From Chloroflexota bacterium (GTDB lineage Bacteria > Chloroflexota > Anaerolineae > Aggregatilineales > Ch27), in the NCBI GenBank assembly GCA_019873685.1, contig JAIOAT010000016.1:1-64000 (forward strand): DNA of 64,000 bases, given 5' to 3'. The notes under the pieces are model-generated. The model did no database searches and was not told where the DNA came from. It saw only the letters and a program-made list of their open reading frames with translations. Shown here piece by piece: positions 29,016-32,334 of this stretch. A program made the translations under genes and the position numbers. How positions within the stretch are numbered: the first letter of the stretch is position 1; every line of letters starts with the position of its first letter.

Positions 29016-29822
29016 TTATTGTAACCCGCCGGTATCAGGCGCGGACAGGGCCAGCCGCCGCACCACCTCCACGGCTTCCGCCGGGTAGTCCGGCAGGCGG
29101 TCGCGCAGCAGCCGCCCGGCCAGCGCCAGCAGTGCGGCGGCGGCCTGCGGTGTTTCCTGCAGCAGGGCAGCGTTGATCTCCGCTCCCAGCGCCGGGTAAG
29201 CCTGCTCGAAGCGACGGGCTGGATCGATGCTATCCAGCGCGGCGGGCCGGTCGGCGGGGACCAGCGCCGCGATCAGCGTCAGCAGGTGGGCGAGGGCCTC
29301 GCCGCGCACGAATCGATGCCCGCTCAGGCGTTCCCCTCGCCAGTGCCGCCCGATTCCCACCCACAGATTGGTCAGGAACTGGCCGAAGTGATAGGCCGGG
29401 TCAGCCTGCCGCCTGGCGTGCTCAGCTGCTGTACGGGCCACGATCTCCCCGGCGCAGGCTGCCATCCCGGCGCGGTCGATCAGGACACGGTAGCTGTTCA
29501 GGCGGGTGACCGCCAGCTCCTCCGGCGCAAAGACGGCGTATTCCACCAGGTGGCCAAAGCGGTAAAGCACTTTGAGGCCGTGCGCCGTCTCCCGGAAGGC
29601 CAGGGCGATCTGCTCGTGATCGGGCAACCAGTCAAAGGTGGTGCGGAAGTGCTCCTGCTCGCCCGGCGTGGTCACGATCCAGAAGTCATGGTCGGAATAT
29701 TCATCCGGGGCGTGGTCGGTGGCGGCCATCGATCCGGCGGCGATCAGACCCAGCACACGGGGATCGGCGCTCAGGGTGCGCACCAGCGCCGCCGTGAACG
29801 CCGCATAATCAACCTGGTTCAT
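29016..29822 (-). CDS. Nucleotidyltransferase-domain protein
   Basis: LGLIAAGSMAATDHAPDEYSDHDFWIVT. Confidence 0.75.
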   Translation of the reverse strand: MNQVDYAAFTAALVRTLSADPRVLGLIAAGSMAATDHAPDEYSDHDFWIVTTPGEQEHFRTTFDWLPDHEQIALAFRETAHGLKVLYRFGHLVEYAVFAPEELAVTRLNSYRVLIDRAGMAACAGEIVARTAAEHARRQADPAYHFGQFLTNLWVGIGRHWRGERLSGHRFVRGEALAHLLTLIAALVPADRPAALDSIDPARRFEQAYPALGAEINAALLQETPQAAAALLALAGRLLRDRLPDYPAEAVEVVRRLALSAPDTGGLQ

Positions 29823-29886
29823 ATGAAGGTCTCCCCCCTTTCCCGGTGGAAGCGCCCCGGTCACTGCGCCGCTGGCAATGCCGCCC

Positions 29887-31893
29887 TCAATCCTCCACCA
29901 TCAGCGTCTCCCATTCAGCCAGGGCGGCTTCCAGCTCCTGCTCAGCGCGAGCGTAATCCTGCCCCAGGTCGTGGACGCGGGCCGCATCCCCGGCGGCGCT
30001 GGCCTCCTCGATGGCGCCGCTGAGATCGACCAGCCGCACTTCCAGCGCCTCGATGCGGCGCTCCAGTTCGGCGGTGAGCCGGGCGCGTTGATACGGGGAG
30101 AGCCTTGGCGAGCGCCCGGTGCGTTCGTCATCCACCGGGGGCTTTGGCGCCCTGGATCGTTTGGGGGCGGCGACCGCTGTACGTTCTGCCGGGGCGGCAG
30201 GTTGCGGCGGTTCGCTTTCGGCGCTGCGACCATCCCGCACGGCCAGATACTCGGCATAGGGGCCTTTGAAGACGATCAACTCACCGGGGCGGGCGTCCCA
30301 GATTTGCGTCGCCAGGCGATCGATCAGATAGCGGTCGTGGCTGACCATCAGGATTGTGCCGTTGAAGCGCTCCAGCACCTCCTCCAGAATCTCCTGGCTG
30401 GCGATATCCAGGTGGTTGGTTGGCTCGTCCAGCAGCAGGAAGTTGGCCCCGCTGAGGGCCAGCTTGGCCAGGGCCAGCCGTCCGCGCTCCCCGCCGGAGA
30501 GCGTGCTGACCGGGCGGAAGACATCCTCGCCGGTGAACAGGTAAGTAGCCAGGTAATTGCGGGCCTGGCTCTGCGGCATATGGCGGACGCTCAGCAGTTC
30601 GTCGATGACTGTGTTGGCGGGGTTGAGTTCCTCATGGGCCTGGGCGAAGTAACCGATCTGCACGCCTGCTCCCAGCCGGGCGCTGCCCTGCTTGGGGGCC
30701 AGCTTGCCCAGCAGCGTCTTGAGCAGCGTGGTCTTCCCCACGCCGTTGGGGCCGATGAGCGCGGCGATCTCGCCCCGGTAGAGGGTGATGTCCGGCACGG
30801 TGAAGAGCAGGTCGCCATCCGGGTAGCCGACGCCCAGGTTATAGGTCATCAGCACCTTGTCCCCGCTGCGGATGGCTGCCTCCAGGCGCATATGCATGTG
30901 CTTCTCGTGTTGCGCCGCGCTCAGTAACCGCCCGCCACGGGTGGGTAGCTCGCCGCGCAGGGCGGCCTCCAGGCGGTTGAGGTCGCCTTTGGACTTGCCC
31001 AGGACCATCGTTTCCAGCTTGCGGATTTTGCCACGGGCCTGGGTGGTGTTCTGCTTGCCCAGGTTACGGCGGATGTAATCCAGTTCCTTTTCGATGAAAG
31101 CCTGCTGGGCTTCGTATTCCCGGCGCAGCCGCTCGTGGCGCTCCTCGCGCTGGGTGACGTAGTGGCTGTAATTGCCGCGGTAGACCTCCATCCGGCCAAA
31201 GGCCATCTCCCAGATGGTCGTGACCACGCGGTCCATGAAGTAGCGGTCATGGCTGACGGCCAGCACGGCCCCGCTGAAGGACTTGAGGAAGCCCTCCAGC
31301 CATTCCACCGCGTCAATGTCCAGGTGGTTGGTCGGCTCATCCAGGACGAGCAGGTCGGGTGATTCCAGCAGCAGGCGGCCCAGCAGGGCGCGGGTGCGCT
31401 CCCCGCCGGAAAGCTTGCTCAGCGGACGCGTGTATTCCTCCGGGGCAAAGCCCAGGCCGGTCAGCACCATCCGGATGCGGTGTTCGTACTCAAAACCGCC
31501 GGCCTGCTCATAGCGTTGCTGCAGCGCGCCATAGGCTTCGATGAGTTCGTCATCATCTGGCCGGCCAACCATCTCGTGTTCCAGCTCGGCCAAGCGGGCT
31601 TCCATGTCGCGCAGCGGGCCAAAGACGCGCAGCATTTCCTCGTAGAGCGCATGATCGCCGGCCAGTTCCGGGCGCTGGGGCAGGAAGCCGATGCGCAGGC
31701 CACTGGCCCGCGTGATTGTGCCCGTGGTCGGCGTGTCCAGGCCGACGATCAGGTTGAGCAGGGTGGTCTTGCCAACGCCGTTAGCGCCAACCAGGGCGAT
31801 ACGCGCACCGTGGGGGATGCTGGCGCTGACATTGCTGAAGATGTCACTGGCGCCAAAACTCTTGGCGACATTAGTCAGGGTTACCAGGGCCAT
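29887..31893 (-). CDS. ABC-F family ATP-binding protein (Uup/YdiF-like with C-terminal coiled coil)
   Basis: Two Walker A (GANGVGKTTLLN, GPNGVGKTTLLK), two LSGGE signatures, inter-domain linker, no TM. Confidence 0.95.
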   Translation of the reverse strand: MALVTLTNVAKSFGASDIFSNVSASIPHGARIALVGANGVGKTTLLNLIVGLDTPTTGTITRASGLRIGFLPQRPELAGDHALYEEMLRVFGPLRDMEARLAELEHEMVGRPDDDELIEAYGALQQRYEQAGGFEYEHRIRMVLTGLGFAPEEYTRPLSKLSGGERTRALLGRLLLESPDLLVLDEPTNHLDIDAVEWLEGFLKSFSGAVLAVSHDRYFMDRVVTTIWEMAFGRMEVYRGNYSHYVTQREERHERLRREYEAQQAFIEKELDYIRRNLGKQNTTQARGKIRKLETMVLGKSKGDLNRLEAALRGELPTRGGRLLSAAQHEKHMHMRLEAAIRSGDKVLMTYNLGVGYPDGDLLFTVPDITLYRGEIAALIGPNGVGKTTLLKTLLGKLAPKQGSARLGAGVQIGYFAQAHEELNPANTVIDELLSVRHMPQSQARNYLATYLFTGEDVFRPVSTLSGGERGRLALAKLALSGANFLLLDEPTNHLDIASQEILEEVLERFNGTILMVSHDRYLIDRLATQIWDARPGELIVFKGPYAEYLAVRDGRSAESEPPQPAAPAERTAVAAPKRSRAPKPPVDDERTGRSPRLSPYQRARLTAELERRIEALEVRLVDLSGAIEEASAAGDAARVHDLGQDYARAEQELEAALAEWETLMVED

Positions 31894-32000
31894 AAGTGTT
31901 TTACCTTCAGCTTCCAGCGACCTGCGGGGTCGCTGAACAGGTTGTCATCAGTATGCCGGGAAAGGCGTTCCTGGCGCGTAGCGCCACCGGGCGAAAAAGC

Positions 32001-32032
32001 AAAAAAGCTGCGGGACATGCGCCCACAGCCTT
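32001..32032 (-). terminator. Intrinsic terminator in the ABC-F 5' leader (attenuator candidate)
   Basis: Minus strand gctgtggg-cgcatgt-cccgcagc then TTTTTTGCTTTTTC, about 110 nt upstream of ATG 31893. Confidence 0.85.
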
Positions 32033-32075
32033 AAGAGTTTGCTCGTAGCATTGCTAAGGGCATGCAGGCGCGACA

Positions 32076-32126
32076 TCAGGCTGGAAAAGCGCCGCCAGCC
32101 ATTCTGATCATCCGCCTGCTGTCCAT
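32076..32126 (-). CDS. Candidate 16-aa leader peptide upstream of ABC-F
   Basis: MDSRRMIRMAGGAFPA; GGAG SD 6 nt upstream of ATG. Confidence 0.5.
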   Translation of the reverse strand: MDSRRMIRMAGGAFPA

Positions 32127-32198
32127 GGGTGACTCCGTTGTGTTCTACCAGCGCCCTGGAGTGTACATGGCCGGGGAGAGCGTGTCAAGCGCAGATGG

Positions 32199-32235: not shown

Positions 32236-32334
32236 TAGCGTTAATGCCTCTGTACGGGCTGCTGCCTATCGGGTACAATGACGCGGCGAGCCTGCCGTTA
32301 TCCCCGGCTCCCCATTGCATCGTCAGGAAACAGG

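Follow-up and report, generated by a model that had tools for sequence, protein, structure and literature searches.

A predicted ribosome-mediated attenuator family preceding resistance-type genes in the Anaerolineae

The leader upstream of an ABC-F gene in a Chloroflexota genome is, judged from covariance-model searches, one copy of a large, previously undescribed RNA family of the class Anaerolineae. It was analysed within a window of 64 000 nt (contig JAIOAT010000016.1, positions 1 to 64 000). Very probably, this leader acts as a ribosome-mediated transcription attenuator of the vmlR/bmrCD kind that is induced by early ribosome stalling. The comparison supports a promoter, two alternative helices, a small ORF that extends to the antiterminator arm, and the nature of the downstream genes; we infer what signals the stall, how segment 1 acts in the window copy, and that drugs are inducers. 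By homology of the downstream genes, the leader is not specific to the ABC-F gene of the window but is shared by a number of unrelated gene families throughout the class.

The ABC-F gene and its leader

In NCBIfam, the only ABC-F model passed by the window protein was NF000355 (467 bits, cut-off 380), and the score against the Uup model was 384 bits, below the cut-off of 900. The protein bears a Uup-type C-terminal domain (PF16326, Pfam), and its relatives in the PDB are EttA, Uup, VmlR/ExpZ and PoxtA. The earlier note on this DNA had called it Uup/YdiF-like, which fits the C-terminal domain but not the model assignment. A 282-aa ORF lies 22 nt 3′ of the ABC-F gene, and the two are probably in one operon. 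A nucleotidyltransferase-like motif, GS...DEYSDHDF, was spotted in it by eye, and it had no match in Pfam, NCBIfam or PDB. It also adjoins the ABC-F gene in G001, the only other genome compared from the genus; in G004, from the same family, a GNAT-like ORF occupies its place. The opposite neighbour is a HAD hydrolase gene at 32278, divergent from the leader. Because the small ORF sits between divergent genes, the terminator has no same-strand upstream gene to serve. The leader and the genes that follow it comprise these features:

29016–29864, minus strand: 282-aa ORF (motif by eye)
29887–31893, minus strand: ABC-F gene, 668 aa, NF000355 'ribosomal protection-like ABC-F' (NCBIfam, Pfam, PDB)
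32001–32014, minus strand: segment 4, terminator 3′ arm CCCGCAGC and first U-run
32019–32032, minus strand: segment 3, AAGGCTGTGGGCGC, common to the antiterminator (3′ arm) and the terminator (5′ arm)
32059–32071, minus strand: segment 2, antiterminator 5′ arm GCGCCTGCA.GCC (folding, covariation)
32076–32126, minus strand: leader ORF of 16 codons, ATG at 32126, TGA at 32078–32076, peptide MDSRRMIRMAGGAFPA
32113–32119, minus strand: GCAGGCG, alternative segment 1 (anti-antiterminator), from sequence and the minimum-energy fold
32133–32136, minus strand: Shine–Dalgarno (SD) sequence GGAG of the small ORF (sequence; conserved in G001 and G004)
32151–32156, minus strand: GGGCGC at the predicted RNA 5′ end, possible segment 1 (partner of the antiterminator arm), from sequence
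32160–32188, minus strand: promoter TTGACA-17 nt-TACACT (10 of 12 matches; conserved in G001 and G004)

The earlier note had described an SD sequence, a small ORF, an antiterminator option and a terminator on the minus strand, and all were found in those places. Its estimate of about 110 nt between the terminator and the ABC-F ATG agrees with the measured 107 nt. The antiterminator arm does begin just past the leader stop codon, at a gap of 4 nt rather than 5, and the antiterminator itself is present and longer than first described, spanning 32071–32019 (GCGCCTGCA.GCC / GGC.TGTGGGCGC). Absent from that account was the strong promoter, which was the only promoter-like site detected by scanning 2.2 kb (0.2 such sites expected); the RNA 5′ end is predicted near 32153.

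The terminator stem (32032–32004) has 11 bp and a folding energy of −17.2 kcal/mol (z −2.75), and the antiterminator is the more stable of the two at −22.2 kcal/mol (z −2.4). When folded as a whole, the window leader had no extra stability relative to shuffled sequence (z −1.4). Two stretches are candidates for segment 1, GGGCGC and GCAGGCG, the latter being a perfect complement of CGCCTGC within the arm. The layout is above chance, since it recurs entire in two relatives and in many other genomes.

Occurrence of the leader across the class

The leader was kept before the ABC-F orthologs of G001 (96% identity) and of G004 (75% identity), the latter being one of three other genomes of the family. 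A near-unchanged block, CCTTAGCA...TCTTAAGGCTGTGGGCGC..CCCGCAGC, is common to these two leaders and that of the window genome (G000). The earlier note had made its reading depend on conservation of the leader ORF and terminator in orthologs, and both are present in G001 and G004. The antiterminator folds in all three leaders (−22 to −24 kcal/mol) and the terminator in both of those tested, G000 and G004 (−17 to −19 kcal/mol); the G001 terminator is identical in sequence to that of G000. The leader was absent before the ABC-F orthologs of two further family members, G002 and G003 (73–74% ABC-F identity), and was not seen, on comparison by eye, before the other ABC-F orthologs of the order with a readable upstream region. 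A BLAST search of the order with the leader was convincing only in the two relatives, the remainder being short chance matches.

A first covariance model, 71 positions long and derived from the three leaders, detected further copies elsewhere in the order with a similar layout. Among these was a second copy in the window genome (L215, G000:C12:64085-64168, with the model match at 64085-64156), which precedes a small ORF and the ATPase and permease of a DrrA/DrrB-type ABC exporter. Three first-round matches (L222, L226 and L228) were dropped for their appearance of coding sequence. At E≤0.01, a second model, built from 19 leaders, gave matches in 185 of 397 Anaerolineae genomes and, within the order, in 74 of 154; of 40 control genomes, to which loci of Bacillota, Bacteroidota and Spirochaetes had led, it matched 2. 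E-values from these models are approximate, and the 99 leaders studied below are the best-scoring loci. Of the 34 genomes positive at E≤0.001 in the phylum sample, 8 were outside the class Anaerolineae, all with weak scores. No convincing copy was found in ten named loci around ABC-F orthologs from Anaerolineae and other Chloroflexota. Rfam gave no match above the gathering threshold and nothing relevant at E≤5. Promoter-like sites were present in 84 of 96 family members, against 6.9 expected.

The lone match outside the phylum (G879:C1:613474-613559, E 3.6e-5) is in a Bacteroidota genome reached via a Pontibacter locus. A second terminator-like hairpin is present within about 100 nt downstream of the L215 leader, and tandem second hairpins of this sort (GCCGTGGG-type) lie between the first hairpin and the exporter genes at L213, L216, L218, L220, L221 and L224.

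Alternative pairing, the small ORF and the proposed mechanism

Covariation across relatives, which the earlier note had proposed as a check, was found for both the terminator and the antiterminator. Among the 19 leaders, the nine terminator pairs were 100% paired, six of them changing on both sides, and the antiterminator was 95.2% paired with three pairs changing on both sides, including GTGCC/GGCAC in G030; in slid controls of this alignment, pairing fell to 28–56%. For the 99 leaders, 99.4% of terminator cells were paired with 119 compensatory cells, and the antiterminator was 90.8% paired with 49 compensatory cells in an alignment that had been adjusted to this helix and so favours it. As the middle strand is common to both helices, both of its partners should follow its changes. 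In the 99 leaders, U at column 142 was matched by A 38 times in the terminator and 19 times in the antiterminator, and A at column 137 by U 23 and 14 times, respectively. Such double covariation is a prediction of mutually exclusive pairing.

For the small ORFs, the best SD-preceded codon was taken as the start, chosen blind to frame, giving 72 ORFs. Of these, 54 were in frame with the arm (GCG-CCT reading), and most stop exactly 18 nt past the first base of the arm (+18). Most family ORFs have 16–36 codons and many end P-C-R-S/I-A-P-x-x-R. Identity at the three codon positions of in-frame ORFs was 0.34, 0.31 and 0.31 in the variable part and 0.71, 0.64 and 0.63 in the conserved end, and these near-equal values suggest that the frame and stop are kept and the peptide seemingly is not. 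The window ORF is one base off the family frame, as is the second copy in its genus (L215/L216); the genus has thus not kept the peptide end, an argument that this end is dispensable. The off-frame ORF could mean that the window copy is drifting, yet G001 retains it. Given the footprint of a ribosome, one terminating at the stop of the window ORF should still cover the arm 4 nt further on.

A candidate segment 1 is also seen in the wider family. Upstream of the arm, 45 of the 99 leaders carry the motif GGCGC (15 expected), often between the SD sequence and the start codon; its reverse complement was not enriched in the same leaders (10 versus 11 expected). The base neighbouring GGCGC covaries with the arm (33 of 51 versus 23 expected; 2 of 2000 shuffles), and the bases flanking this neighbour showed no covariation with the arm. 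The mean predicted probability of upstream pairing of the arm was 0.88, compared with 0.60 when the upstream sequence was shuffled.

A separate pattern was observed among the 27 leaders without an SD-preceded start, 14 of which are before ABC-F genes. Eleven ABC-F leaders, each from a different genome, carry an ATG just a few nt past the −10 box and 75–77 nt 5′ of the arm, placing the ORF at the predicted RNA start and suggesting leaderless translation (L214, L217, L296, L304, L309, L311, L312, L313, L315, L318 and L321). Ten of the 11 belong to the set without an SD sequence, and in L315 a start preceded by an SD sequence is also available as an alternative further upstream. The peptides share approximately M-[IVFL]-[YH]-x(6)-[ILVF or similar]-[SA]-x(4)-[AST]-[SG], as in MVYFSGTSVLSFMRIAS. 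Identity was 0.63 at second and 0.40 at third codon positions; second positions being more alike than third, this fits a conserved peptide, and the predicted product resembles a dedicated stalling peptide. This apparently leaderless subclass stands before another type of ABC-F.

Under the proposed mechanism, the RNA would begin near 32153, and pairing of segment 1 with segment 2 (GCGCC) would leave segments 3 and 4 to form the terminator, stopping transcription before the ABC-F gene. A ribosome that finishes the small ORF, on or just before segment 2, would again favour the terminator. A ribosome stalled early, possibly by a drug blocking the peptidyl transferase centre or the exit tunnel, would instead cover segment 1 and free segment 2, so that segments 2 and 3 could pair as the antiterminator and the ABC-F gene would be read.

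The same promoter, RNA and terminator could also constitute a separate small RNA, with the ABC-F gene served by its own downstream promoter. Many readable ABC-F orthologs of the order without the leader have, by eye, a −10-like box no more than about 60 nt from the gene, and G004 has TACAAT between terminator and gene. In the 2.2 kb scanned, however, the upstream promoter was the only one, the antiterminator pairing is conserved, and at 90 of 99 loci the element is followed by unrelated genes sharing a functional theme, a placement that a cis regulator should show and a free-standing RNA gene should not. We consider the separate RNA improbable. Even less likely is an amino-acid attenuator in which the ORF senses a shortage of one charged tRNA. 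The common P-C-R-S/I-A-P-x-x-R ending could point to Pro or Arg, but the near-equal codon-position identities indicate that RNA rather than peptide is kept in that stretch, the peptide end is lost in the window copy, and neither a single-residue run nor downstream biosynthetic genes were found. A riboswitch or RNA-binding regulator, sensing a ligand or protein directly with the ORF incidental, might explain the conserved RNA block around the arm. Retention of the ORF frame and stop position speaks against it, as do the loop between the arms, variable in length and sequence with no conserved aptamer-like region, and the Rfam result, and we give it equally little credence. Ribosome-mediated attenuation, as the earlier note had proposed, is the best reading of the leader, backed by covariation of two helices, the frame running into the arm and the resistance-type genes.

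Downstream genes and relation to known attenuators

The first classified gene at the 99 loci was a DrrA-type ATPase (30), GNAT (25), ABC-F (24), ABC-2 permease (4), MFS (4), HAD (4), ABC half-exporter (3) or methyltransferase (2), with 3 unassigned; classes were given by best match to representatives, ten of which were checked in Pfam, and the counts are raw. A resistance-type first gene (ABC exporter ATPase/permease, GNAT, ABC-F, MFS or half-exporter) was thus present at 90 of 99 loci, a label assigned by homology. The GNAT count was not built in, as no model-building leader was assigned to a GNAT gene. At L325, L328, L330, L331, L340, L344 and L360, two or three related GNAT genes are in tandem behind a single leader.

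These switches probably turn on unrelated drug-resistance genes upon ribosome stalling. We lean, by a modest degree, towards a broader proposal: one attenuator family would link a whole resistance regulon of exporters, acetyltransferases, ABC-F proteins and pumps to ribosome stalling class-wide, without a transcription factor. In most copies the ORF would sense failed elongation in general, independently of its peptide, while leaders preceding one type of ABC-F would rely on an apparently leaderless ORF with a conserved and probably drug-specific stalling peptide. If true, a single homologous leader that precedes five or more unrelated families of resistance-type genes would represent a cis-encoded regulon. 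The leader would also provide a sequence signature for unrecognized resistance genes, such as many GNAT enzymes, in a large and poorly cultured group, and natural variation within the family could be used to ask which drugs stall ribosomes on which ORF sequences.

To our knowledge, drug-responsive attenuators have so far been gene-specific and mostly from Bacillota and Actinomycetota. No earlier report was found in the literature on Chloroflexota attenuators; the control is of a known kind and, as far as this search shows, new to the Anaerolineae. The T-box riboswitch likewise combines one homologous leader, many genes, and a terminator and antiterminator, but the present family has a translated ORF and no Rfam match.

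The likeness to vmlR and to BmrC/BmrD is one of regulatory logic. The vmlR leader of Bacillus subtilis has a 3-codon ORF (MIN), a translation-attenuation hairpin and a NusG pause, and is described for one gene in Bacilli (PMC9226507). It shares with the present family a small ORF, antiterminator and intrinsic terminator before an ABC-F gene; its anti-antiterminator would correspond to the candidate segment 1, and its readthrough upon early stalling to the behaviour predicted here. The family ORFs, by contrast, are mostly 16–36 codons and one homologous leader precedes many gene families. The bmrB-bmrC/bmrD leader of B. subtilis similarly controls a multidrug ABC transporter by ribosome-mediated transcription attenuation; it is from another phylum and has been described for that operon only (PMC4191407). 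The mef/mel (msrD) and cplR systems also combine a leader ORF with attenuation upstream of resistance genes, ABC-F genes among them, each described for its own gene (PMC4335068, PMC10314930, PMC10201436), and it is to these leaders that the apparently leaderless subclass, with its conserved peptide, may be closest.
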